NCBI GenBank assembly: GCA_949317995.1
Contig: OX439045.1
Coordinates: forward strand, 41,373,693 to 41,437,692
DNA from: Acholoe squamosa
Lineage: Eukaryota > Annelida > Polychaeta > Phyllodocida > Polynoidae
Direction of reading: 5' to 3'
DNA length: 64,000 nucleotides
The stretch's first letter is position 1; each line of letters starts with the position of its first letter. This document shows positions 13,831 through 57,715 of this stretch, piece by piece. The notes under the pieces are model-generated. The model was not told the origin of the DNA, did not search any database, and saw only the letters and a list, made by a program, of their open reading frames with translations. The position numbers and the translations under genes are program-made.

Positions 13831-16560
13831 AACACCACTCTCTGTATACTACTTACACCCTGTATGTGTATACAATACTACTCTCTGTGTACTACTTACA
13901 CCCTGTGTGTGTACATTACCACTCTCTGTGTACTACTTACACCCTGTGTGTGTACATTACCACTCTCTGTGTACTACTTACACCCTGTGTGTGTACATTA
14001 CCACTCTCTGTGTACTACTTACACCCTGTGTGTGTACATTACCACTCTCTGTATACTACTTACACCCTGTGTGTGTACATTACCACTCTCTGTATATTAC
14101 TTACACCCTGAGTGTGTACATTACCACTCTCTGTATACTACTTACACCCTGTATGTGTACAATACCACTCTCTGTGTACTACTTACACCCTGTATGTGTA
14201 CAATACCACTCTCTGTGTACTACTTACACCCTGTATGTGTACAATACCACTCTCTGTGTACTACTTACACCCTGTATGTGTATACAATACTACTCTCTGT
14301 GTACTACTTACACCCTGTGTGTGTACATTACCACTCTCTGTATACTACTTACACCCTGTGTGTGTACATTACCACTCTCTGTATATTACTTACACCCTGT
14401 GTGTGTACATTACCACTCTCTGTATACTACTTACACCCTGTGTGTACATTACCACTCTCTGTATACTACTTACACCCTGTGTGTGCAATACCACTCTCTG
14501 TGTACTACTTACACCCTGATTGTGTACAATACCACTCTCTGTATACTACTTACACCCTGTATGTGTACAATACCACTCTCTGTGTACTACTTACACCCTG
14601 TGTGTGTACAATACCACTCTCTGTATACTACTTACACCCTGTGTGTACAATACCACTCTCTGTGTACTACTTACACCCTGTGTGTGTACATTACCACTCT
14701 CTGTGTACTACTTACACCCTGTGTGTGTGTACATTACCAGTCCATGTACTACTTACACCCTGTGTGTGTACATTACCACGCTCTGTGTACTACTTACACC
14801 CTGTGTGTACATTACCACTCTCTGTATAGTACTTACACCCTGTGTGTACAATACCACTCTCTGTGTACTACTTACACCCTGTGTGTGTACATTACCACTC
14901 TCCGTGTACTACTTACACCCTGTGTGTGTACATTACCACTCTGTATACTACTTACACCCTGTGTGTGTACATTACCACTCTCTGTGTACTACTTACACCC
15001 TGTGTGTACAATACCACTCTCTGTATAGTACTTACACCCTGTGTGTGTACATTACCACTCTCTGTATATCACTTACACCCTGTGTGTGTACATTACCACG
15101 CTCTGTGTACTACTTACACCCTGTGTGTACAATACCACTCTCTGTATAGTACTTACACCCTGTGTGTGTACAATACCACTCTCTGTATATCACTTACACC
15201 CTGTGTGTGTACATTACCACGCTCTGTGTACTACTTACACCCTGTGTGTACATTACCACGCTCTGTGTACTACTTACACCCTGTATGTGTACATTACCAC
15301 TCTCTGTGTACTACTTACACCCTGTGTGTGTGTACATTACCACTCTCTGTATACTACTTACACCCTGTGTGTGTACAGTACCACTCTCTGTATACTACTT
15401 ACACCCTGTATGTGTACAATACCACTCTATGTGTACTACTTACACCCTGTGTGTGTACATTACCACTCTCTGTGTACTACTTACACCCTGTGTGTGTGTA
15501 CATTACCACGCTCTGTGTACTACTTACACCCTGTGTGTACATTTCCACGCTCTGTGTACTACTTACACCCTGTGTGTGTACATTACCACTCTCTGTGTAC
15601 TACTTACACCCTGTGTGTGTGTACATTACCACTCTCTGTATACTACTTACACCCTGTATGTGTACATTACCACTCTCTGTGTACTACTTACACCCTGTGT
15701 GTGTGTACATTACCACGCTCTGTATACTACTTACACCCTGTGTGTGTACAATACTACTCTCTGTGTACTACTTACACCCTGTATGTGTACATTACCACTT
15801 TCTGTGTACTACTTACACCCTGTGTGTGTACAATACCACTCTCTGTATACTACTTACACCCTGTATGTGTACAATACCACTCTCTGTGTACTACTTACAC
15901 CCTGTATGTGTACAATACCACTCTCTGTGTACTACTTACACCCTGTATGTGTACAATACCACTCTCTGTGTACTACTTACACCCTGTGTGCATACAATAC
16001 TACTCTCTGTATACTACTTACACCCTGTGTGTGTACAACACCACTCTCTGTGTACTACTTACACCCTGTATGTGTACATTACCACTCTCTGTGTACTACT
16101 TACACCCTGTCTGTACATTACTACTCTCTGTGTACTACTTACACCCTGTGTGTGTGTACATTACCACTCTCTGTATACTACTTACACCCTGTGTGTGTAC
16201 AATACCACTCTCTGTATACTACTTACACCCTGTATGTGTACAATACCACTCTCTGTGTACTACTTACACCCTGTGTGTGTGTGTACATTACCACTCTCTG
16301 TGTACTACTTACACCCTGTGTGTGTGTACATTACCACTCTCTGTATAGTACTTACACCCTGTGTGTGTACAATACCACTCTCTGTATACTACTTACACCC
16401 TGTGTGTGTACAATACCACTCTCTGTATACTACTTACACCCTGTGTGTGCAATACCACTCTCTGTATACTACTTACACCCTGTGTGTACAATACCACTCT
16501 CTGTATACTACTTACACCCTGTATGTGTACAATACCACTCTCTGTATACTACTTACACCC
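13831..16560 (+). repeat. 41-bp satellite, block 1 (about 66 copies)
   Basis: The unit is 41 bp and contains ctctctgtgtactacttaca followed by ccctgtgtgtgtacattacca; regular steps of 41 bp are seen at 13,921, 13,962 and 14,003. Variation is concentrated at a few positions: gtgtac versus gtatac, tgtgtg versus tgtatg, acatt versus acaat, and 2-bp changes in the GT run. No stop codon occurs in any forward frame of the unit, so frames of 370-580 codons run through the block in all three phases. The reverse strand is closed by TAA and TAG in each unit. I interpret it as non-coding satellite DNA. Confidence 0.97.
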
Positions 16561-16882
16561 TTTATTTTATGTGAATAACTTCGTCCCGTAGAATTAGCAT
16601 TGCGCGGCCGATCTGCACACCCCCAGTGGCGTAACATGTGCCGATCCACCACAGCGGCCGATCCACCACTGCAGCCTCGTTCTGGGTGCATGTAAACATT
16701 CAAAATGGCAGACCCGCGCTTTTACGGGGAACTACGGTACTGGATTTTGATAATTTTTCCTTACTTAAACCTCTAAAAACATAAAATAAATATAGAACTA
16801 AACTCCCCTGGTGTCCTCGGTGGCTGATCCACCCCTCGTGGTGGATCGGCCACCTCGTACACCACGGTTGTTTAGTTCTATC
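16561..16882. mobile_element. Non-satellite island within the 41-bp array, with a hairpin
   Basis: About 320 bp interrupts the satellite. Its right part, about 16,791-16,882, is an imperfect palindrome: atagaactaaac pairs with gtttagttctat, and ggctgatccacc with ggtggatcggcc. The rest includes gtgccgatccaccacagcgg, which repeats the hairpin's sequence, and ctacggta. An inserted inverted-repeat element is likely, though no target duplication could be fixed against the degenerate satellite. Confidence 0.5.
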
Positions 16883-17899
16883 TATGTATGTGTGCAATAC
16901 CACTCTCTGTATACTACTTACACCCTGTATGTGTACAATACTACTCTCTGTATACTACTTACACCCTGTGTGTACAATACCACTCTCTGTATACTACTTA
17001 CACCCTGTATGTGTACAATACCACTCTCTGTGTACTACTTACACCCTGTGTGTGTACATTAACACTCTCTGTATATCACTTACATGCTGTGTCTGTACAT
17101 TACCACTCTCTATATACTACTTACATCCCATGTGTGTACAATACCACTCTCTGTATACTACTTACACCCTGTGTGTACAATACCACTCTCTGTATACTAC
17201 TTACACCCTGTATGTGTACAATACCACTCTCTGTGTACTACTTACACCCTGTGTGTGTACATTACCACTCTCTATATACTACTTACATCCCATGTGTGTA
17301 CAATACCACTCTCTGTATACTACTTACACCCTGTGTGTGTACAATACCACTCTCTGTATAGTACTTACACCCTGTGTGTGTACAATACCACTCTCTGTGT
17401 ACTACTTACACCCTGTGTGTGTGCAATACCACTCTCTGTGTACTACTTACACCCTGTGTGTGTGTACATTACCAGTCTGTGTACTACTTACACCCTGTGT
17501 GTGTACAATACCACTCTCTGTATACTACTTACACCCTGTGTGTGTACAATACCACTCTCTGTATAGTACTTACACCCTGTCTGTGTACAATACCACTCTC
17601 TGTGTACTACTTACACCCTGTGTGTGTACAATACCACTCTCTGTATACTACTTACACCCTGTGTGTGTACAATACCACTCTCTGTATACTACTTACACCC
17701 TGTGTGTGTGTACAATACCACTCTCTGTGTACTACTTACACCCTGTGTGTGTGTACATTACCAATCCGTGTACTACTTACACCCTGTGTGTGTGTACATT
17801 ACCAGTCCGTGTACTACTTACACCCTGTGTGTGTGTACATTACCAGTCCATGTACTACTTACACCCTGTGTGTGTGTGCATTACCAGTCCGTGTACTAC
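16883..17899 (+). repeat. 41-bp satellite, block 2 (about 25 copies)
   Basis: The same 41-bp unit resumes after the island. Near its right end the units change to gtgtgtgtacattaccagtc and lose the 'ctctgtg' segment, a local sub-variant with a shorter period, before the array ends in unique sequence. Confidence 0.96.
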
Positions 17900-38210: not shown

Positions 38211-38471
38211 ACTCCTTTGATGACGACTACAGCATGGAAGCCAAACAGAGGAGAAAATCAGTTTTTCTGTAAGGATGACACGTCCTGAGTGATCGGGTCA
38301 GTTTAATCTAAGTCCATCCTACATTCTATGTTGCTAAGGCATCCATAAAAAGTTGACAACGGATCAAGGATATTACCAAGATTACGCAGGAAGCTTTATT
38401 TCCTTGGATAAAAACTGTACGGAGTAGTCATTACAATTTCTGCCACAACGATCACGGAACTAGGAAGCAAG
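38211..38471. other. Region before LINE ORF1 (possible LINE 5' UTR)
   Basis: No coding feature is seen. The 5' boundary of the LINE cannot be set from one copy; the other copy in the window is 5'-truncated. Confidence 0.4.
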
Positions 38472-40020
38472 ATGGCGCCCACCCCAGCAACACGCGCAGC
38501 TACAGAGAAAGCGTCGGAGCAGAAACTAGATGAAATTCTTCAGCAGCTCGGTACACTGAAAACAATGCAGAAGGACATCACTGCTCTAAAGGAAAGTCTA
38601 TCTGATATAGGGGAACTCAAAAAACTTATTAGTTCTTTCAAAGAAACACAAAAAAACGTAGAAAAACTAGACGAGGAGGGGAAGGTGGTCCAGGGCCGGA
38701 TAACCGTTCTCGAGGGCTCAGAAACCAAGATAAAGTCCAGACTGGATGAATTAGAAAGCTCGAGTTTGCACTATAGTAATGAAATAGAGGGGTTACATTT
38801 AGAAGTGATAGAAAAAGATGCTACAATTGGAATGTTACAGGATAGAGTCACCGAGCTAGAGCGGAAAGTCCAGGAAGTGCAAGGTGACCAAAACAGCATC
38901 GAGGTTCAGATCAAAAGTGCAGTAGAAGAGAGGGTTGCGGAGAAACTTGACAGGGAGGTTAGGAAAAATAACCTACGGTTTGATAACATTCCAGAGCATA
39001 CTAATCAAAACCTTTTAATGGAAGTCAAGCATATCCTCCAGGAACTCAATCTATCGGTTTCTATTAGAGCTAAGTTATGCTAGGCGGGTGGGAGGTAGGC
39101 GGGGAGACGAGAATAGGCCTGTAGTTGTCTCATTTGTCCAGCGCGCACTGAGAGACATAGTCTTGCACAGACATAATATGCTGCGCACCTCTCAATTCTA
39201 CAAAGGGGTATTTATCAACCCAGACCTCACAGAAGAATTACAAGAACATCACATGATATTGAGAGCAGTAGCAGACCGAGCCTCAGAACTAGGCCATGCA
39301 GTCTCAATTGTGGGAGAAGATATCATAGTAAACAACGTAAAATATGGCAGAGCTGAGTTGGATAACTTGCCTGATGATTATTGTGTACAAAACGCATTCA
39401 CCGTCGATACCCCAAAAGGGGTGATTTTCATGAGCAGGTTCTCTCCCCTATCTAATTGGTACCCAATAAAATTTGAGCTTGATGAAGCAGAATGGGACAG
39501 TACAGAACAGTATTACATGTACAGGAAGGCAGTTGCTCACAAAAAAGATGAGGTTGCCCGAAAAATACTTAAAGAGACTAAGCCTAAAAATATTAAGAAA
39601 ATGGGAGACTCTTTCCAAGCGGAGAAAAGTTGGGACTTAAAAAAGTAGATTGAAGTGTTGGAAATGGCAAATTATGCTAAATATACACAAAATGACAGTC
39701 TTGAGGACTTCCTACTCCAAACAGGAAATAAGCCATTGTTAGAGGCCACGCGGGATAAACGAATGGCTGTAGGGCAGACGATTTTCTCAAAGAAACTTAG
39801 GAAGGGAGAGGGAGTTATCGCAGGAAAAAATGAAATGGGCAAGTTACTAATGCGTCTTAGGGATAGAATAAGATCTGAGCAGGAAACACACCAAAAGCAA
39901 TTGGCAGAGGAAATAAAGGTGGCTACAAAAAATAGTGAAAAAGACTTGGGCACGTCTACACTGGAAGAGACACCTAAAAGGATCTCGGGTGATACGCCTC
40001 AGAGCGCGCCTAAAGCGTAG
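38472..40020 (+). pseudogene. LINE ORF1: coiled coil, L1-ORF1p-like RNA-binding region and NADAR domain
   Basis: The start (gcaagATGgcg) is followed by a long heptad-rich coiled coil (residues about 15-150, LKTMQKDITALKESLSDIGE and onward). Next comes RKNNLRFDNIPE and, after a frameshift near 39,075, RPVVVSFVQRALRDIVLHRH..GVFINPDLTEEL..DIIVNNVKYGR, the layout of L1 ORF1p RNA-binding regions. The C-terminal half is a NADAR (YbiA-like) domain: FSPLSNWYPIKF, STEQYYMYRKA, SWDLKK, ANYAKYTQNDSLEDFLLQTG, and GKNEMGKLLMRLRDRI. NADAR proteins act as N-glycosidases on riboflavin intermediates or as hydrolases of ADP-ribose linked to guanine. A stop (TAG, 39,646-39,648) interrupts the NADAR part, so this copy is broken in at least two places. 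The Glu of TEQY and Trp of SWD match family positions; the usual D-x-x-W-G segment reads DKRMA here. Confidence 0.8.
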
Positions 40021-41300
40021 GCCCAGGCAACAGGGAAATTACATAGGGGCCCTATGCAGGCAATTGTAAATCATGCGACCCCCCTAGGCCGTATTGGTAC
40101 ATCACTATTTATCAGCCAATCACTGCGCAGCATTTAACCAAACATGTGCGTTGAGGCGGCAAACCACAGAACGGAGGTCAATTATTGAATGAAGAACTTT
40201 GCTCATGTTAGATATCAAATTATATCATACTACATTATCATGGAAGTTAGAGCCCGTACAGGTCGTCGAGGGAAAAACTTGGAGTGGAGGTAAACACAGC
40301 TACAGACCCTTCTGACCAGCAGTTTGATTGTAAATTCCAGCGAGATGCGAGAGTGACGGTGAGTGACTTGACAATGAGAGCGATTGATGAATGTTTTGAT
40401 AAGCTATGCCACACCAAAGTTTCTCTGTATGGGTCGTATGACTTCTGCGGGAAACAGTTAACAACTGATGGAGTACCTATGCTAGGTAGCAACAAGCGGA
40501 AGAACCGGTGAAGTAATTAATAGCAGGCTGCAGGACTTCCAATGCTGCAGAGCGTAACTGTGTTGATCAATAAGTGTGGATTATACGGTGCTGGGCTAAG
40601 ATCAGTGCAGAGAAGGAGGTATAATGATCCCACGTTGATGAACTAGGAGGATTACGGAACAGAAAGCAGCAATTCCCGTATAAAGGAGAATACATCTGCA
40701 GAACTATGAATATGAAACCCAATATCTCAAGCATTGAGATATAGGAGGTAGGACACTGATTAGCCTGCATGAACAGCTTATTCTAGACAGTAGATTAAAA
40801 GCATGCCATTGTCACCTACACCCTAAGAGTTTAAATAGTTTAAGAACAGTGCATGATTTCACACTACTTAAGATTTGGCATTATTTTGCCTTCAACCTTA
40901 ACACACTCCTTAAGTGTTCTGTACCTGTATTGATTGCTTGCATAGTATGTTAACCAAGGAATTTTGGAATAGGACATCTCATATCCAAAATGGTTTATTG
41001 ATTATGGCTATAAGAATAAGGGTAATACTTTATTACTGACTGCTAACGGTTATCTGGTAGGACCAAAGTAATCAGGGGTTAGATTATACATTTAAAATAT
41101 TTTACACGTTGGAAAGCTGTAGCGATGGACTACAGGTTTGCAGGTTCACTTTTTAAATTTCTCAGCAGGAAGTCGGAATAATTGATGTTTGTTGACATGT
41201 GTGATTGTATATGTGTCTTGTTCTCTGTGTCTGTTAGGGTGGTGCCAGTAAGTGAAAAGGAAATTACCATGATAAGATGGGTATCAGGGATAAGGGATTT
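40021..41300 (+). other. Region between LINE ORF1 and ORF2
   Basis: A segment at 40,284-40,511 is open for 75 codons (VNTATDPSDQQFDCKFQRDA, then RVTVSDLTMRAIDECFDKLC) and has a coding look. It may be a short LINE-encoded piece or captured sequence. The rest, 40,512-41,300, is AT-rich and unassigned. Confidence 0.4.
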
Positions 41301-43608
41301 CTCTTAATCTCCTAGAATATCCACAGTTTACCTGGTAAAAAGGAAACTACTAAATTTTTTTGTTATGATAGGACTCCTGACATATTGGCACTCTCTGAGA
41401 CGTGGCTTAAAGAAAAAGACCCTAGTGTTCATTTTGAAGCGGCAGGGTATTCTTTGCATAGATGGGACCGCCCCACTACCAAAGCTGGGGGGCTCGCCAT
41501 GTTTGTTAGAGATACTGTGCCACACATAAGACTGACAGACCCAGAGTTCAATATAATGAATGGAGATTGTGAATTGATGGGAATAAAACATATAAGGAAA
41601 GGGTGCAGACCAGAGTTTGTCATGAACATTTATAGGCCTACAGATGGGAACGAAAATGAATTTACTGAAATACTCACTACAGCTATAAATAAGGCAAAGA
41701 GTATGCACAAGAAGTGTACAATATCCATAGTAGGAGATTTTAATATCAATCTCTCTTCTGCTGAACTCAGTAAAACAGTCATGGACCCGCTCTGCAAGAA
41801 TTATCTCTTAGATGCATATATAGACGGGCCAACTAGACCTTTATACCATCCAATAAATGTGTTAGATCAAGTCTTTACTGACAGCGAGATAGTGGCGGAC
41901 TCAGGTCGTATCTGGGTGAATATATCAGACCATGTACCCGTATATGTGAGGTTTAAGAAGCCCAGAAATCCAAATTTAATGGAGAAAATATCAGGGAGAT
42001 CATATAGGAATTATAATTTCGATGAAATTAGGAGAACTCTGAGAGAGGTGGACTGGAGCTATGTAAGGGAGGTGGGGGAGGTCAATGGAGCATGGAATTT
42101 TATGGAGAGTGAAATAATCAAAATGGCTGATAAATTGTACCCGGTAAAAACATTTAAAGTCAGGCAAAACAGGCCAGCTTGGCTCTCAGATGAATTGCTC
42201 GGCATGTTCAAAGAAAGAGATGCAGCTTCTCGGTCTGGGGAACAGAAGGACAGAGAAATAGCTAGGAATCTCAAGAACCAGTGTAATTATGCAGTTAGAA
42301 GAGCAAAGGGTGTGTAAATTAGAGAGCAGTTGTAGAGATACAGGAGTGACCCGAGGAAATTCTGGGAAGTAATCAATGAGATATTGCCGAAAAGAACCAC
42401 AAAAAGACTCATAAGCCTACTTGATCCTCAAGGGGAGCCTATGAGTAATGAGCAAATGGCTGAAACTATCAATAAGTTTTTCTCCAGTGTGGGCCAAAGA
42501 CTGGCTGAAAATATTGGCACAATTGATTATGCAGTGGAGGAGGATAGAGTTATGCCAGAGGACACCTTTTACCTTACTCTTATACCCATAGACAGTGTAG
42601 AGAAAGAGGTCAGGAAAATTGATACGCACAAATCTTCGGGCATAGGTGGTATCTCTGCAAAGCTCTTACGTGATTCCCTGTTGATATTGATAGATGAGTA
42701 TACGAGTATACTAAATGATTCGATAATGCAAGGAGTATTTCCAGAAGGGTGGAAAAGGGCTACTCTGACACCAGTGCCTAAGGTAGCAAACCCCATAGAT
42801 ACAACAGAGTTCAGGCCTATATAATTGTTGCCTGTCCCAGGCAAAATATTAGAAAAGTTTGTGTATAAACAACTATATTCGTATCTTGAACATAATAATC
42901 TGCTGGATAGTAAGCAGTCAGGGTTTAGAAGTGGTAGATGTACAATTGATACGGTATTCCAGGTTCTTCACACTAGTCACTTGCACCAAGTAAACAAAAA
43001 AAAAGATAGGGATAGTGTTTTTTGACCTAGCAAAAGCCTTCGACTCATTAGACCAGGAATATCAGCGCAGGCTCAAAAGTGGCTCAAGAGTTATCTGGAA
43101 AATCGTATACAGCGTACCCTATGTAACAAAGAGTTGTCTGGTTACGACGAGGTGTCATATGGTATTGCTCAAGGATCTAGTATAGGTCCATTGCTGTTTT
43201 TAATTTATGTCAACAGCATGGCTAGGTTGAACACTCGAGCTGAACTTAGGTTGTATGCAGATGATACTTTGCTTGTGGCAGCTCATTGTTAGATTTACAA
43301 AACTCATTGCAGAAAGATGTGAATATGGTCGTTGACTGATGTGATAGAAATAGTTTAACAATTAATATTGCAAAGTCTAAACATATGGTAATATCTAAAG
43401 AGGATGAAGAAATGCAGCTTACTATAAAAGGATTAAATTTCGACCCTACCAGCATGTACAAGTACCTAGGCATTGATATTGATCACAATCTATCCTTTGA
43501 GGGTCAGGTCAGGTCTATGTTAAAGTCAGCCAGGCATAAGATATGGATGTTACTTCAGGCCAGACACATGATAGACGAACATACTGCTGTTACCATAATG
43601 CGTAGTAT
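41301..43608 (+). pseudogene. LINE ORF2, 5' part: APE-like endonuclease and reverse transcriptase
   Basis: The endonuclease shows the family landmarks in order: LALSETWL, AGGLAMFVRD, NIYRPTD, IVGDFNINLS, LDQVFTD and SDHVPVYV. An RT N-terminal extension follows (NKFFSSVGQRLAENI, SSGIGGISAKLL, PEGWKRATLTPVPK), then SGFRSGRCTIDTV, FFDLAKAFDSL, GSSIGPLLFLIYVNSM and the catalytic YADD (43,253-43,264), then YLGIDIDHNLSFEGQV. Stops near 41,315, at 42,315 and 42,333, and at 42,822, a frameshift at an A-run near 43,004, and a deletion of roughly 50 residues between LDQEYQR and the LKSYLENR block disable it. The motif set points to the CR1/L2/Rex1/Jockey side of the non-LTR tree. The gypsy element interrupts the thumb region at 43,609; the frame resumes at 58,143. 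Confidence 0.9.
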
Positions 43609-44024
43609 TGTAGTAAACACAAAAGGACCAGACGCAGCCAATAAAGTTGTATAACAGTAGAAGGTGTTTGGTTTATTTCTTTCAGGCCTTAGCGCTAACA
43701 GTTCTCATTAATTGACATCAATTATCCTTGCTTGTATTGAGATGCACCACCCTTACAGGTCTCCACCGATCACAACCACCGAACCCGGAGTCACCGACCA
43801 CACTTCTGCCACCTGCAAGTCTCTTATCGCATCTCCCCCCCCGCGACCACCGGACCGCCTTTTTATGGCGTCACTAAATGTGACGTCACGAGCGTGACGT
43901 CACCGGTCGCTACCATGTCGCCCCCAGGTGGGACGGACCCTAACTAGCGCTCCCGCGCCGGTGGCTACCACCGGACCAATCGCCCCAGCATTACAATTAT
44001 TATACAAGTGATATAATCACTACA
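43609..44024 (-). repeat. 3' LTR of the gypsy element (416 bp)
   Basis: It matches the 5' LTR at 57,739-58,142 almost base for base, and on the minus strand starts TGTAGTGATTATATC and ends TTTACTACA. It has two TGACGTCA (CRE/ATF-like) palindromes at 43,881 and 43,895, a CATAAAAAGG TATA-like site at 43,859-43,867 just downstream of them in the minus sense, and AATAAA on the minus strand at 43,672-43,677. The 5' LTR has only one CRE because of a short deletion between the repeats. Confidence 0.93.
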
Positions 44025-50582: not shown

Positions 50583-52755
50583 CGCCTTTATCAGGCGAAG
50601 AGCCTCCCTCCTCCGACTCGGCGTCTAAGGCGACGGCCTTGTATGAGACTTGGTTGGGTGGGAGCATCAACGGGTCTTCCTCCTCCTCCTCCCAGTCCAG
50701 CTCCTCCGGCTCCTCCCCCAAGTCCACTCGGGAAGCCATCAAGCGCTCCAACCGCCCTCCCACCACGGGTGTATTGTTATCTGACGTGTGGGTTGGGACC
50801 GTCGGCGGTGACGACGTCAATATCTGGCGCACCTGCTCTGCGTCCCTGAGGGTCGCCGGCCCCTCCGTCTCCGGTGCCGCTGCCTCGAAGAGTGGGGACG
50901 ACGCTATCCGGACCTCGTGGCCGGCAGGGGACAGCCACGCCTTTTTCCGCAGTGCTTCTGCAATCAGGTGTTTCTGAAACTGCTTCTTAGCAGCCTCTGC
51001 CATCTCCTCTGCCCTCTGGTTCGTCTCCTTCAGGAGCTCCTCTCCCACCTCAGCAGGAACCAGGGCCCCGTCGCTGTCGATCATCAGGGACTGCAACAAT
51101 ATGGGGTTCCCGTCTCCACTGGACGCCGGGCCGCTCACCACCTGCTCCAGCACCTGGCTCGCCTCCTCTGCCAGGTTCTCCGGCTCCCCCTGTCCCAACT
51201 GTTGTGCTAATATCCGCGCGGCCTCGAAGTCCTCAGTGGACCTGGTGCTCAGTAGATCCTCCTCCGTAGCTGCTGACGTGGAGGCCACCAGTTCCAGTGT
51301 GGTTTTCAGCATCTTAGGCGGGGGGCTGCACTCCTCCTCCTGGCCCCCTTCTGTCGCCGCCGAGGTGGGAGCCACCGGGTCGGATGCCATCTTAGGGACC
51401 TTGGAGGGTGGACTTCCCTCGCCGCCTGGTGCCTCCTCCGGGGTCTGCTCCCCTAGCACGATCGCCGGTGGGTCTGCATCCCAGGGGGCCTCCTCTCCAC
51501 CCATTTTCGGTGCCCCTTTCCTCTTCCGGCTGACCTCTCCACCGATGTTGGAGGTCGGTGCAGCTGGCTGGCCTACCGGTGAGCGGCTGCGCTGCTGGGA
51601 CGCTCCGGAGATGACCCTCCCCACCACGCTACGAGGCTTGGGCCGTCGGAGTGAACGCCTCGGCGTCTCCTCCTTCCCCTCCGGCGTAGGAGTCCGGGCC
51701 TTCTCCTCCCCCGTTCCTGTGCTCTCCAGCAGGCGTTCCGTGGCCAAGTGCGCGGCCCTCCTGCTGCTCCTACGTCGCACGGTTGGAGAGGTAGGAGATC
51801 CTTGCGACGAGTCAAGGCTCTCCTGACCTTCTCCTTCCTCGCCTCCCCGCCCTGTCTCCACCTCCCCGGCTGGCGACCCCTCGGTGGCCGGTGAGGCAGC
51901 GGTGGCCGGTGACGCCGCGGTGGCCGGCGACCCTGCGGTGGAGGTGGCTTCCCTCGTGTGATACTGGATCACAGCCTTCGGTGGTCGCTGGCTTCGGGGG
52001 AGCTTTATCCAGCTATGGCCGGCGTGCAGTGCCACCAGATGATTGACGAGATCGTCCCACCTTTCTCCTTTGACCTGAACCTTGCATCCTTCGACCAGAC
52101 AGTTCCACCCCGGTCCGCAGGACTTGTGCAGCGCGGAGATACGTCGATTCAGGACATCCCTGCGCCAAAAAGTGCGGCCACACTCCGGACAATTCAGTGG
52201 AGTCTCCGACTTCCTCATTGTGTTGTTGTCGAGTTCTGCGGCCCGCCCGGTGGCCCAGCTACCGCCTCGTTCTCGTGCCGCGTGCTCGGTGGCAGAAACT
52301 AGGTCACGGTGCAGTTCCCGGCCCCTTCGCCAGGTGGCCTCTTCCTCCCGGTGGTCCTCTTCGGTGGCCCACATTTCGCTTGCCCGCCTCTGCTCCTCCC
52401 ACCTTTTATTTTTAGCTTTGAAAACCGCTTTTACTGCCCGACTCATCTCCCCGTCTTTTGATCCCCTCTTTCCAACTAATCTCTCTCCCTTTTCTTTTGC
52501 AGGAGAGCCATGCCCCGCCGCCGCCCTGGGGGCTACCTCCACCGAGCCCACCGGCCGCCCTCCTCCAGCCACCTGCAGGTAAGTTTCCCTTTTTACCCCG
52601 CCGGGGGGGCCCCCCTCAGGTAGGTTTACTATGAAAGAAGGTAAAAGGCGCCTTCCCCTTCCTTTCCACGCCTTTTCCTGCCCTTTTTCTTGCTCTAGTG
52701 GAGCCATAGGTTGGTCCTCCCTCTTCCTTTCTCCCACCGCGGCGGCAGTTGCCAT
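50485..52755 (-). CDS. Third ORF of the gypsy element: zinc-finger protein, 756 codons
   Basis: The ATG at 52,755 has an ideal context (ttaccATGG) and overlaps the end of pol in another frame. Residues about 100-180 are basic and charged. Two finger-like motifs follow: C189-x2-C192-x17-H210-x2-C213 (CPECGRTFWRR..) and C219-x4-C224-x14-H239-x4-H244 (CLVEGCKVQ..HLVALH). Residues 250-720 are low-complexity Ala/Pro/Ser/Glu sequence with short repeats (SPATAASPATAASPAT) and acidic runs (ELDWEEEEEDP). There is no signal peptide or membrane segment, so it is not an envelope protein. A nucleic-acid-binding accessory role is a guess. It is intact apart from the shift at its 3' end, unlike gag and pol. 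Confidence 0.65.
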   Translation of the reverse strand: MATAAAVGERKREDQPMAPLEQEKGQEKAWKGRGRRLLPSFIVNLPEGGPPGGVKRETYLQVAGGGRPVGSVEVAPRAAAGHGSPAKEKGERLVGKRGSKDGEMSRAVKAVFKAKNKRWEEQRRASEMWATEEDHREEEATWRRGRELHRDLVSATEHAARERGGSWATGRAAELDNNTMRKSETPLNCPECGRTFWRRDVLNRRISALHKSCGPGWNCLVEGCKVQVKGERWDDLVNHLVALHAGHSWIKLPRSQRPPKAVIQYHTREATSTAGSPATAASPATAASPATEGSPAGEVETGRGGEEGEGQESLDSSQGSPTSPTVRRRSSRRAAHLATERLLESTGTGEEKARTPTPEGKEETPRRSLRRPKPRSVVGRVISGASQQRSRSPVGQPAAPTSNIGGEVSRKRKGAPKMGGEEAPWDADPPAIVLGEQTPEEAPGGEGSPPSKVPKMASDPVAPTSAATEGGQEEECSPPPKMLKTTLELVASTSAATEEDLLSTRSTEDFEAARILAQQLGQGEPENLAEEASQVLEQVVSGPASSGDGNPILLQSLMIDSDGALVPAEVGEELLKETNQRAEEMAEAAKKQFQKHLIAEALRKKAWLSPAGHEVRIASSPLFEAAAPETEGPATLRDAEQVRQILTSSPPTVPTHTSDNNTPVVGGRLERLMASRVDLGEEPEELDWEEEEEDPLMLPPNQVSYKAVALDAESEEGGSSPDKGDVRRVVCRGDHVPEKIPGADTSPTGETDGAKG

Positions 52756-55700
52756 GGTAACACCGCCGGGGCCCGGATGTGGCGGTACCGCACTCCTCCT
52801 CTAGGTGGCGCGCCGGTGGCCCCCCCACCGCGGTGGCAACAGGTGGCGCCACCGGAGAGCTGAGCCACCGCTCGGGGGCCCAGACCGCCCGGGCCTCCCC
52901 AGTACCCTCCTCCCGAGGCTTCTCCACTTTCTTCAGTAGGTCATAATGCACTATCCTCCTCTTCTGCCCCATCTGGATCTCCCATACAGGACCTCCTAGG
53001 CTCCTGAGAATTTTCCAAGGCCCTGACCAGGGGCACATGAACTTGGGGCACTTGCCTACTTCTTTCCGGGGGACCATATAGTAGACTGTGTCCCCTACCT
53101 CTAGCGGCTCCCCCCGTACCCGGGTGGAGTAATTCCTTTCCTGACGACGGACCGCCCCCCCCATCTGCCGGAGGGCATAAGCATGCCCTCTGGCCATCCT
53201 TCCTTGTAATTCCGCGGCGTAGTCGACGTAGTCGTCGGGTTTCCCTCCCACGATTTCTGGTTGCGGGTTCAACAGGTTACCAGGCAAAAGAGTTTCTCTT
53301 CCCAGCATCAGAAAGTTGGGGGTTTGGTTAGTGGAGGCTTGCACTGAAGATCTATACGCAGCCATTAGGTATGGCAGTTGCAGATCCCAGTCCGTCTGGT
53401 CCTCAGCCACCGACATGGCCAGCATCGACTCCACAGTACGATTGCAACGCTCCACTAACCCATCAGATTTAGGATTATAGGGGCAAGTGCGCGTCTGCGC
53501 CACTCCCAGCAACCGGTGCACCTCCTGGAACATCCGAGCCTGAAAGTTTCGACCTTGATCCGTGTGGATCGTGCCCGGGGGCCCCAGCCAGCACACCACC
53601 TCCGTTACGAAGGCCCGAGCCACCGTCTCGCTTCTTGGTCCGGTAGGGAGACCGCCTCTGCCCATCGCGTAAAATAATCCATGACGATAAGGATGTGCTT
53701 GTTCTTACGCGGGGTGCGCGGGAGAGGACCCATAAGGTCCATAGCCATGCGCTCCAAAGGGAACGCTACCGGTACATGCCGCATCATGGCTCGAGGGGGA
53801 TGGGGCGCCGCCTTACGGCTCAGACACTGGGGGCAAGAGGCCAGCCACTGCACCACATCTCTCTTATAGTCGGGCCAATAGTAGGCCTGCTGGAATCGCC
53901 TCAGGCTCCGGGCCCGACCAAAATGGCAGCTCAACGGGGCCCCATGCACCCCGGCCAAAACCTCTCCTTCTTACTATCCGGCACCACTACTTGCAGGAAG
54001 GTGCGGCCGCCCGGCTCCCACCATACCCTACAGAGTACACCGCCCTCCACCCGCAGCCGCGGGACCTGTGCTGCTAAGGCGCGCACGTCATAGGCCTCCC
54101 CCGAGAGGGCATCCCTCGAGGGGACCTCGCCTTCCTCAATCCATTTCCGAACCCTGGTGAGTAAGGGATCGCCCTCCTGGGCCTGTCTCCAGACCTCCTT
54201 TTGGTCCATAAAGATCCCGTCCGTCTCCTCGGCCGTCACTTCCAGGCCTACCCTCTCCTCTGCTCCCCTATCGGTGGCGGCTTCGCTACGAGTCACCGCA
54301 CGACACTTGGCCAGGGCATCGATTGCCCCCTCGCCTGAGAAGTCCTCGAACAAAGGAGACCCGGAGGGCTCCCCCATGCCGCATTGATTACACGGCCTCC
54401 GGGACAGCCCATCCGCGTTACCGTGATCCTTCCCTGTGCGACTGGCGTAAGCTAAGGGCCGCTCCCGACCATCCTGCACTTGAGTCAGAACAGCCCCCAG
54501 CCCCAGGTTGCTGGCGTCGGTGTCCACCAGGAGCCGTCCCTCTGCCATCGGGTAGGCTAGGATAGGGGCACTCACTAACTTATCCTTGAGCACCTGGAAA
54601 GCTTCTGCACAGTCTCGGTTCCAGGAAAATTTCTTGTCCTTCTCGGTTAGTTCCGAGAGCGGCCTGGCTATTGAAGCAAACCCCGGAACAAAGCTACGGT
54701 AGTAGCCACACAGGCCTAAAAAGGAGCGTACTTCCGTCACTGAGGTAGGCACCGGCCACTCCGACACGGCAGCTATCTTCTCAGGGTCCGTGCCGATCCC
54801 GTTCCTGTCAATTCTGTGCCCCAGGAAGTTCACCTGTTCCCGTACCAGCTGGCATTTGGTGGCCTTTATCTTCAACCCGGCCTCCTGGAGGCGTCCCAGG
54901 ACCAACTCCAGTCGCTCCGCATGCCCCTCCAAGGTCTCGGAGAATACAATGATGTCATCCAAGTACACCAAACACACTGTCCATTGGAGACCCCTCATGA
55001 CAATTTCCATTAGCCTTTCGAACGTCCCGGGAGCGTTACACAGCCCGAAGGGCATTACGCGGAATTGAAACAAACCACGGTGGGTCACGAAAGCTGTCTT
55101 GGGCTTAGCATCCTCCTCCATAGAGACCTGCCAATACCCTGACGCCAAGTCGATGGTGCTAAACCAACAGGCCCCGGACATTGAGTCTAACGAGTCGTCT
55201 ATCCTGGGGAGAGGATAGGCGTCTTTCACTGTGACCGAGTTCAATCGTCGGTAGTCGACACAAAATCTGACACGGCCATCCTTCTTCTTCACGAGGACCA
55301 CTGGACTCGCCCATGGGCCTGAAGCTGGCTCAATCACTCCCTGTTGGAGCATCTTGTCCACCTCCTGATCGACAACCGCCCGGCTGTGCGGGGCTAGCCT
55401 GCGGGGCGCCATCTTTATGGGGGCCGCCTCCCCAGTGTTGATCGAGTGTGTCACCACGTCTGTATGGCCCATGTCCTCATCCCCCTCTTGGAATACCGCC
55501 CTGTTGCGCTCTAACAGCCGTACCCATACAGGATCCTTCTCGACTTTAGTTCCCCCTAGTAAGACGGTTATGAGGTCGTCACCCGTAATGTCCCGACTGG
55601 CCCCGGAGCCCCCTGAGTAATCTTCCGTTACCAGCCGGCACACGGGCTTGCCTACTAACTCCACCTGACCAAGGTGCATACCCTGGTAGACTGTGACAGG

Positions 55701-56354
55701 GTTAGGCCCCGGATTACAGACCAACATGGGCACCTTGCCCCCTTTCGGCATGGACAATGTGAGGCCCAACCGGATTCCCCTTGCGCCCTCCACTCGAGGT
55801 AAGCCTTCCACCATCACTTCTTCCCCTTCAAACTCTGGTGGGACACGGCCCAGAATCACCCGCTCAGTTGCGCCTCCCACCACCTCCGTAGCAACGCTCA
55901 CTATCCTGCAACTGCCACCCACGACCTCCCTTGGCCATAACAACTTGCCTTCTGCTAGGTTTATGGTGGCCCGCGTTTCCCGCAGAAAATCGGCGCCCAG
56001 GAGCCCTGACGCCGCAATGTCAGCGATAATAAATGAAGTGCGTTCTTTCCTTGACCCGCATTGCAGGACCGTAGAAACCTTGCCCTCCACCTGGAGTGGT
56101 TTTCCATCGGCGGTGTGAAATGCCGAAGTGACCGGAGCCACCTGTCCTGGGGATCCCGCCCCCTTCCACCATGCCGTGGACAACAAGTTGTTAGTTGCCC
56201 CGGTGTCCACCACGAGATGGATGGATTGTCCCCATAGCACCCCCTCCACCTCTAGGCCGTTTCCTCTCTTTTCTTTCCGTCCCAGCCATTCTCTCTGCCT
56301 TTCGACCCCCTGGGCCTCCCCCCGGCTGACGGGGGAGACCCCGTCTAGTTTCCC
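52616..56354 (-). pseudogene. Gypsy pol: protease, reverse transcriptase, RNase H, integrase
   Basis: The frame opens at the slippery site (56,354) and runs to 53,931. It then continues in two further frames (53,958-53,605 and 53,665-52,616) after single-base shifts near 53,950 and 53,635. Protease: LVVDTGATNNLL. Reverse transcriptase: RFCVDYRRLNSVTVKDAYPL, FSTIDLASGYWQV, FQFRVMPFGLCNAP, YLDD (54,965-54,954). RNase H begins LLVDTDASNLGLGAVL but jumps from LAYASRTG straight to KDHGNADGLSRRP near 54,434, deleting about 75 residues. Integrase: a zinc-binding H..H..C-x2-C (SCPQCLSRK), a core with MAMDLMGPL, HTDQGRNF and SDGLVERCN, and a GPY/F-type C-terminus. The deletion and frameshifts make the copy non-functional. 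The end overlaps the start of the zinc-finger ORF by 140 bp. Confidence 0.92.
56328..56354 (-). promoter_or_regulatory. Putative -1 ribosomal frameshift site between gag and pol
   Basis: On the minus strand GGGAAAC (56,354-56,348) is a classic X-XXY-YYZ heptamer in the gag phase and directly precedes the gag TAG (56,347-56,345). The pol frame is -1 relative to gag and is open through it. A perfect hairpin, GACGGGG-TCTC-CCCCGTC (56,345-56,328), starts 2 nt after the heptamer, an unusually short spacer. Confidence 0.7.
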
Positions 56355-57715
56355 GACGGCTTGACCTCAGCATCCCTTTTCTTTGCCGCTTCCACTCGCT
56401 TCTTCCAGGCCGGGCAGTTACGTTTAAAGTGGTCTTCAGCCCCACACTCAAAGCATGACCTCCGCGGCCCCATCGGTGAGGTCCCAGTCTTGGTTACCTG
56501 GCCCCCCCCTAATTTCGGTAGTTAGACCCGCCAGCCTTTCCTTGATCTCCGACATCTCCTCAGCCATGGACAGTGACGCGGCGCGGACCTGCTTGCTTTT
56601 CTCCCGCTCCTGTTTTAGATATGCCTCCGCTTGTACCCCCCTCTCCACAGCCTGAAGCAAATTCTTTGTTTCTCCCTGATATATCCAGTTACGGAGTTCC
56701 CCATCATCTAAGCATTCCACGAACCTGTCCTTGGCCATCACGTCCACCGTTGTCGCGTCTGCGTTAGGGTATGACAGACGGACCAATCGGGATATCTCTT
56801 CGGATAACGTCTGGAGCTCCTCCCCCGGCTTCCTCACTCGGGTGCGGAGCAGGGCCTTGTACGACTCTACCTGGCTTTGAGGTTGGAACCGGTTAATCAG
56901 CGCCTCCCTCAACAGTTTGTACCCATTCTCTGATGCTGGTTTTACGGCTGCGAGCAAACGTCTCGCCACCCCCGACAAACTGATCCCTAGGAAGGTCCCT
57001 GCTTCCTTTTCTGACCATCGGTTGGCTAGGACACAGAGGTCAAAATGCGAGAGGAACTCCTCTAGGTCACCTGACCCGTCATACTTTCCCGGCATCACGA
57101 TGGGCTTGCGGGCGGGGCTGTCACCCCCGGCCCCTGGGGCCTCCTCCCCAGGAGTAGGGAGATCCCCCACCCCCACTGGTGGTGTACCCTCTCCCCTGTA
57201 CTCGAATGAGGGGGTGTTCCTCCGATCCCTAGGTAGCTCTGGCCCTCTCCTCTCCTCCCACTGATCACCAGCTCCCGAGTTACCGCCTTCTGTTGTTCTC
57301 CCCGTTCCCTCTTGTTTCTGATAAGTATCCCCTCCAGTGGGACCACCGGCTCCGCCGCTTGCACCACCGGGTGTACCACCGGACGCCCCACAGAACGGAT
57401 TATAACCTCTCCTGGCGAAACTCCCACCAGCCCCAACTTGTGATTTAGCCGCTCCGTCCAAGAGCTCCCCCAACTCCTTCTCCCCCGACTTATCTTCCTC
57501 TCTTTTCCATTCCTGCCAACTTGTAGCATCTTTCCGCACCCCATACCACCTTTTGCTGCCACCGGCCGAGTCGGCGGAACCACCGGACGCCACCGGACCG
57601 CCGTTTTGCATCTGTCTCCGAAATAATATCTCCTCGTCCACTATTTCCACTAGAGATCCTTTCTTCCCTGACCTAGACCTCCTTCCTCCCCACCACTATA
57701 GTCACTATCAGCCAT
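56345..57715 (-). pseudogene. Gypsy gag with zinc knuckle
   Basis: The likely start is the ATG at 57,715 (ggaaATGgc), 24 nt inside the 5' LTR boundary; its frame meets a shift before 57,650, from where the main frame runs 400 codons to 56,448. An N-terminal Gly/Arg/Glu-rich region is followed by the capsid-like gag core (FLSHFDLCVLANRWSEKEAG, LINRFQPQSQVESYKALLR, GELRNWIYQGETKNLLQAVE). After a single-base change in a run of eight G (plus-strand C run 56,502-56,509) the nucleocapsid CCHC knuckle appears in the next frame: CFECGAEDHFKRNC, C-x2-C-x4-H-x4-C, at 56,455-56,414. It ends at TAG 56,347-56,345. The shifts mark a dead copy, though the G-run could also be a sequencing error. Confidence 0.88.

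Follow-up and report, generated by a model that had tools for sequence, protein, structure and literature searches.

Can a long interspersed nuclear element (LINE) carry, within the reading frame of its own RNA-binding protein, an enzyme domain of the NADAR (YbiA) family, and what would such a domain do for a retrotransposon? The question is raised by a 64,000-nucleotide stretch of the genome of the polynoid annelid Acholoe squamosa (assembly GCA_949317995.1, contig OX439045.1, positions 41,373,693 to 41,437,692, forward strand), referred to here as the window, in which a first-pass annotation made from the sequence alone had described a coiled coil, an L1-ORF1p-like RNA-binding region and a NADAR domain in one colinear unit, placed 1.3 kb ahead of an APE endonuclease and a reverse transcriptase. 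The fusion is real: a NADAR domain lies in frame in the first open reading frame (ORF1) of an APE-type LINE, and it moved together with that LINE.

The NADAR Domain of the Window ORF1

In the window, the NADAR stretch is divided by a single TAG on either side of which the same frame continues, and each half passes the curated cut-off of the Pfam NADAR profile (PF08719, 35.1 bits) alone: positions 39070–39645 score 46.1 bits (E 8e-12, profile positions 9–87) and positions 39649–40017 score 49.3 bits (E 8.5e-13, profile positions 91–163), which confirms the domain first proposed. A genome search that reads through stops gives the whole stretch 107.2 bits (E 9.4e-28). The N-terminal part of ORF1 (38472–39080) is a coiled coil, with matches only below curated cut-offs; the C-terminal part, composed of the L1-ORF1p-like region followed by NADAR, lies one frame off from it, a small frameshift separating the two relative to a second copy of the element (L029). 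The colinear order of the three parts thus stands, except that the coiled coil sits one frame away in the window itself.

The nearest relative with an intact ORF1, L030, shares 57% identity with the window across L030 residues 210–473 and 36% across residues 5–206. Its predicted fold bears out the L1-ORF1p-like RNA-binding region: a coiled coil, an RNA recognition motif (RRM) and a C-terminal domain (CTD) follow one another in the order of L1-type ORF1 proteins, and the additional ORF1 domain is predicted to adopt the NADAR fold.

Table 1. Features of the LINE in the window (positions of the window; residue names after P. nicotianae NADAR).
Feature	Position	Strand	Remarks
Stretch common to the window and L029, LINE core	38275..43249	+	97.5% identity, 5022 alignment columns
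ORF1	38472..40020	+	decayed: small frameshift at ~39065, one TAG at 39646
Coiled coil	38514..38963	+	approximate limits, from L030 model residues 18–174
L1-ORF1p-type RRM and CTD	38964..39391	+	approximate limits, L030 model residues 175–318
NADAR (YbiA) domain	39436..39873	+	PF08719 profile 9–163
Codon, glutamate equivalent to E43	39505..39507	+	
Codon, lysine equivalent to K50	39526..39528	+	
Codon, glutamate equivalent to E125	39742..39744	+	
Middle ORF remnant (SGNH-fold protein in relatives)	40275..40478	+	decay common to both copies, no indel between them
ORF2, APE-type endonuclease part	41295..42317	+	decayed
ORF2, reverse transcriptase part	42318..43654	+	decayed; YADD at 43254; 3' end cut off

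A Second Copy and Movement as a Unit

The frameshift and the TAG that interrupt ORF1 in the window are absent from the second, dispersed copy (C15:19286500–19295000, minus strand), which has a private insertion within NADAR. Four listed stop codons of the window ORF2 are likewise absent from it, a fifth listed TGA, common to both copies and located in a short frame-shifted stretch of the window, being left uncounted. The common parent of the two copies thus most likely had ORF1 and NADAR in one frame, as judged from the aligned sequences, and NADAR moved together with the LINE. Over the first kilobase that follows ORF1 in the gap before ORF2, the copies differ by no insertion or deletion; the decay of the middle ORF is thus shared and older, and the parent apparently moved when its own middle ORF was no longer intact.

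ORF2, the Middle ORF and the Class of the Element

The announced APE endonuclease and reverse transcriptase were found downstream of NADAR, both decayed (Table 1). The endonuclease piece of the window reaches Pfam E-values of 0.0017 and 0.0071, below curated cut-offs, and the assignment to APE-type LINEs, with endonuclease and reverse transcriptase in ORF2, is made through relatives: L011, L019, L025 and L030 pass the RVT_1 and Exo_endo_phos cut-offs, and the window ORF2, both parts taken together, is 57.6% identical to that of L030 over 682 amino acids (aa). The closest solved structure to the L019 ORF2 is human L1 ORF2p (355.6 bits).

The 1.3-kb spacing ahead of ORF2 was correctly noted, except that the remnant of a third ORF inside it was overlooked. 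In relatives, this middle ORF has an SGNH fold, predicted from an intact relative. The nucleophile serine of the GDS block is missing, D-R/K/G being read by eye in six of seven sequences, with the seventh (L021) not clear; the L030 middle ORF likewise has D-R at this block, and the G-x-N-D block is kept in five of the seven. A match of the L021 middle ORF to NarE (19.7 bits against a cut-off of 27, E 0.0011) was taken as chance. One element (L028:2618–4004, minus strand) contains two adjoining, diverged SGNH-type middle ORF copies, 30% identical. In another family (family A, L009–L014, e.g., L011:3767–9541), ORF1 consists of NADAR and an SGNH-like C-terminal part, and ORF1 and ORF2 share one frame with a single TAG between them, in near-identical context at L009, L010, L011 and L012; this TAG is a candidate for stop read-through or reinitiation that is worth a test. 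NADAR and SGNH-like folds co-occur in these LINEs in two arrangements, as separate ORFs or within the same ORF. The window element is best read as a three-ORF LINE whose L1-type ORF1p received a NADAR domain behind it.

Abundance and Constancy of the Fusion

The genome searched comprises 1.48 Gb in 63 contigs, and a profile search scores the best 150 candidates only, such that absence from the scored list is not proof of absence. All 150 scored NADAR matches (the best 150 of 3224 candidates) lie above the Pfam cut-off and 143 of them contain no internal stop; L001 and L002, two stand-alone NADAR ORFs, are among these 143. The CTD and NADAR of the window, used together as the query, gave 2589 candidates; of the 150 matches scored among these, many lie in open frames of ~490–530 aa. 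An ORF with endonuclease or reverse transcriptase motifs stands beside the NADAR ORF in each of 20 ten-kb loci chosen from the NADAR matches. Among Pfam-checked loci, L011 has an ORF1 of 757 aa and an ORF2 of 1167 aa, the corresponding frames measuring 530 and 1050 aa in L019 and 571 and 949 aa in L025; L030 has an ORF1 of 488 aa, a middle ORF of 265 aa and ORF2 pieces of 724 and 248 aa.

Whether the domain is a constant part of the element was approached from both sides. On the ORF1 side, the sample consisted of the best 43 of 150 rows, minus one second piece of the same locus, with 107 more distant ORF1 rows outside; NADAR follows directly behind an L030-type RRM-CTD in 40 of these 42 loci of the window's clade, the two loci without a match being short fragments with open frames of 226 and 128 aa. 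On the ORF2 side, 57 of 130 rows were taken by hand; every row of at most 31% identity was excluded, as were many, though not all, of the partial matches. A listed NADAR lies no more than 12 kb upstream on the same strand in 35 of the 57 endonuclease matches, and upstream in 21 of the 28 whose ORF2 is intact (at least 900 aa, no stop). Two of the seven intact-ORF2 loci without NADAR were inspected: the middle ORF is present, no ORF1 match was found in the preceding 1.1–1.2 kb, and one of them keeps a stub resembling the ORF1 tail; both look 5'-truncated or decayed. No intact relative without NADAR was found among the close relatives of the window LINE examined.

Active-Site Residues

Residues are numbered after P. 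nicotianae NADAR (chain 8bau minus 2, matched to PMC11543638), in which E43 and E125 hold the distal ribose and the pyrophosphate is contacted by K50, R79, W89, R93, W133 and, via water, D130 (PMC11543638). In E. coli C7 NADAR, changes of E88 (E43), K95 (K50) and D171 (at the structural place of E125) abolish rescue from the paired toxin (PMC11543638). The residue table held 63 NADAR matches, including two solved references and leaving out duplicates L003 and L005; 59 were aligned, the window and L036, each present as two broken pieces, being dropped, and the 55 LINE rows tallied comprise 53 from this genome together with the public proteins P0001 and P0002.

E125 is present in all 55 LINE rows, E43 in 54 and W89 in 53; the K50 position is K in 35, R in 9, M in 9, and A and V in 1 each. 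Grouping at 70% identity yields 27 families, 25 of them of this genome, and E43 and E125 are among only 5 of 148 columns that are invariant across the 27 family representatives. As the codons of both glutamates are a mixture of GAA and GAG, it is the protein that is held and not the DNA. The window, by motif reading against aligned relatives, keeps K75, W89 and D130 as well as E43, K50 and E125; L029 has M at the W133 position.

Public ORF1-NADAR Proteins and Origin of the Domain

The RRM-NADAR part of P0002 retrieves 36 public proteins, the query included. Twenty-four of these, P0005–P0028, align over 83–99% of the query part and, like P0001 and P0002, carry ORF1-like N-terminal parts; together with those two they form a set of 26 probable LINE ORF1 proteins, and some are named 'ribA/ribD-fused uncharacterized protein'. 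In this set E43 and E125 are kept in 26 of 26, K50 is K in 24 and R in 2, and W89, W133 and D130 are kept in 25, 23 and 22, respectively. The full ORF1 alignment, used as a profile, returned two proteins, P0003 (an ORF1-like RRM without NADAR) and one coiled-coil protein, a scant yield that probably results from coiled-coil words filling the candidate list. A comparison of P0009 with viral contigs found no relative.

The stand-alone NADAR ORFs of this genome (L001:1486–2151 and L002:1336–2076, minus) have canonical active sites and score 183 and 168 bits; in the tree they group with the public ORF1-NADARs P0020, P0008 and P0013 on starred branches. These relationships suggest capture or domestication between a host NADAR gene and a LINE, in either direction. 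In a 71-row NADAR tree, a single clade for all ORF1-NADARs is neither rejected (p-AU, approximately unbiased test, 0.214) nor shown.

Selection on the Domain

The ratio of nonsynonymous to synonymous substitution rates (dN/dS) of NADAR is 0.048–0.113 in 16 unsaturated pairs from two families (L044–L046/L048/L055 and L050/L053/L054/L057), 33 pairs having been computed and 17 left out as near saturation; comparison across copies, as first suggested, thus reveals purifying selection. Eleven pairs from the window's side of the family have saturated synonymous differences (proportion pS 0.77–0.93) at nonsynonymous proportions (pN) of 0.07–0.27; three other pairs were run with them, of which one shows saturation (pN 0.32) and the remaining two differ too little for a judgement. 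The NADAR domain is almost certainly selected for a function. Rows L044–L055 combine strong purifying selection with a K50 position that is mostly M and a K75 position that is M, and their ORF1 families possibly have a changed substrate.

What the NADAR Domain May Do

The best explanation, credited as a whole with an even chance, is a NADAR glycosidase that is tethered through ORF1p and clears adducts from guanines. By analogy with human L1 ORF1p, the ORF1 protein would coat the element RNA, and one NADAR per ORF1p protomer would be placed on the ribonucleoprotein. There, the domain would act as an N-glycosidase, the two glutamates holding the ribose while the ribose-base bond is hydrolysed; its likeliest targets would be guanines, in the element RNA or single-stranded cDNA, to which host guanine ADP-ribosyltransferases have attached an ADP-ribosyl or related ribosyl adduct. 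NADARs are described as the only hydrolases reported to reverse guanosine RNA ADP-ribosylation (PMC11833690), and edible clams possess a guanine-N2 DNA ADP-ribosylating activity, CARP-1 (PMC11209040); it is from these reports that the removal of ribosyl adducts from LINE guanines is guessed. The domain is probably catalytically active in most intact families, going by sequence; base-linked ADP-ribose as its main substrate is a more tentative proposal, which falls short of an even chance.

Several observations weigh against this guanine-directed activity. The R79 position is D in the window (motif KKMGDSF) and in 27 of the 55 LINE rows; only 3 of the 55 have R, as do 4 of the 26 public ORF1-NADARs, whereas 12 of 13 non-ORF1 NADARs listed beside them keep R79, as do the two stand-alone NADAR genes of this genome. 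R79 is a ligand contact in one structure and is not family-defining; its loss in most LINE NADARs nonetheless means that the substrate may differ from classical ADP-ribose. R93, lost in most rows, and W133 drift as well, and the K50 position is M, A or V in 11 of the 53 own-genome rows; together with the R79 loss, the K50 loss in some families may mean a different substrate or binding only. M occupies the K50 position in each of the nine rows from which the dN/dS values derive, and E43 is lost as well in L055, one of the nine, so strong constraint alone is no proof of ADP-ribosyl-guanine hydrolysis, and a K50-dependent form of this reaction is unlikely in these families. Conservation of E125 is no proof of it either: E125 matters structurally in YbiA-type NADARs, but C7 NADAR has an aspartate at the structural place of E125, and its sequence-aligned glutamate is dispensable for guanine-ADP-ribose hydrolysis (PMC11543638). 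Choosing rows by NADAR score favours conserved residues generally, but this bias fails to explain arginine loss alongside glutamate retention.

These same losses are what would be expected if NADAR were a binding or structural module without turnover, recognising a ribosylated ligand, a transcript 3' end, or an RNA end that is NAD-capped or modified, with the glutamates kept for ribose binding. Purifying selection in families devoid of K50 fits such a module, as does the SGNH-fold third ORF, which likewise lacks its usual nucleophile serine and indicates that altered enzyme folds are kept in these elements. The invariance of both glutamates across the family representatives, and the public set, which retains E, K/R and E in all 26 and W133 in 23, stand against it, and it is a possible though on balance unlikely explanation. 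The action of NADAR on small-molecule signals (cyclic ADP-ribose variants, ADP-ribose phosphates) in a host antiviral or anti-transposon defence is improbable: such a role has been proposed for viral (phage) NADARs (PMC9503650), but the same source argues that NADARs of eukaryotic RNA viruses target mainly macromolecules, a soluble target needs no RNA-binding fusion, and the loss of R79 should weaken pyrophosphate binding. Of the two functions offered in the first-pass annotation, the reversal of ADP-ribosylation on RNA or cDNA is close to the explanation preferred here; the other, in which NADAR would strip ADP-ribose from proteins and so shield target-primed integration from PARP responses, is the weaker and highly improbable. 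PARP1 and PARP2 do act at L1 integration sites, but they are reported to promote L1 retrotransposition (PMC8535693), and the action of NADAR on protein poly-ADP-ribose is not reported in the parts of the literature consulted. The window copy itself is dead, and the absence of any function, through an accident of assembly or annotation or a NADAR gene next to LINE debris, has a vanishingly small probability given the second dispersed copy, the 150 of 150 scored matches above cut-off, the intact ORFs, the purifying selection and the public fusions; a chance neighbour or an assembly artefact is ruled out by the first three of these.

If the tethered NADAR is an active glycosidase, something must ribosylate LINE RNA or cDNA, which would constitute a layer of transposon control; ribosylation-based transposon control is not known to have been shown in animals, although no search aimed at it was made. 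These LINEs offer a testable case of nucleic-acid ADP-ribosylation in the conflict between transposon and host. The most far-reaching version, rather unlikely when taken whole, is that LINE ORF1p captured a base-directed ADP-ribosyl N-glycosidase as a counter-defence, whereby hosts such as clams, with their guanine-N2 ADP-ribosylating activity, would mark retroelement RNA or cDNA, ORF1p-NADAR would erase the marks, and the changed pyrophosphate contacts of most LINE lineages, alongside an unaltered ribose grip, would record a shift to polynucleotide-bound substrates. Were it true, hosts and their own transposons would be engaged in an ADP-ribosylation arms race.

Other Features of the Window

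No Rfam family was found within the window at gathering scores. An LTR (long terminal repeat)-type retroelement at 52619–56366 (minus strand) has aspartyl protease, RVT_1 (130 bits) and RNase H matches and an integrase-core match just below cut-off. A tandem array of a 41-base unit (~99.5 copies) occupies 13834–17899, and long open frames there are likely spurious.

Comparison with Known Systems

The first-pass annotation knew of no description of such a fusion, but one is already in print: NADAR-like ORF1 proteins occur in Tx1 LINEs of Crassostrea gigas, for which a role in RNA processing was suggested (PMC12477816, Genome Biol., September 2025). The likeness lies in a LINE ORF1 with a YbiA-family NADAR; the account, in the parts available to us, is a short remark and a supplementary figure, and it offers neither copy counts nor a fold model, neither an active-site tally nor a selection test, and mentions no third ORF. 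The same report places a NADAR in an Ectocarpus Gypsy lineage, which is again a retroelement with a YbiA-family domain but an LTR element with NADAR in Pol instead of an RNA-binding ORF1p (PMC12477816). Apart from this report, no LINE NADAR is pointed to by titles or abstract openings among the literature matches listed (subscription journals and preprints outside), and NADAR is absent from the main text of a study of gastropod non-LTR elements (PMC11203168).

In ZfL2-1/CR1/RTE LINEs, an enzyme domain with a conserved active site is likewise added to ORF1p, but it is an SGNH esterase instead of NADAR (PMC3905857); relatives of the window element have this fold in a separate ORF that lacks the usual serine, and in family A an SGNH-like stretch lies behind NADAR in ORF1. 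By comparison with the DarT1-associated NADAR antitoxin and P. nicotianae NADAR (8bau; PMC11543638), the domain is here fused to an RNA-binding retrotransposon protein, and R79, often also R93, is replaced. The matched part of the human L1 ORF1p chain (2yko, 2ykp, 2ykq) ends (residue 316–320) where the LINE NADAR begins. What is added to this prior art is the scale and diversity of the fusion in one genome, its co-mobility, and the fact that no intact close relative among those examined is without NADAR, as well as the composite fold, a signature of residues seen in both sets of proteins, the SGNH-fold partner and the evidence of selection. LINE ORF1 proteins thus capture enzymes other than SGNH esterases too.
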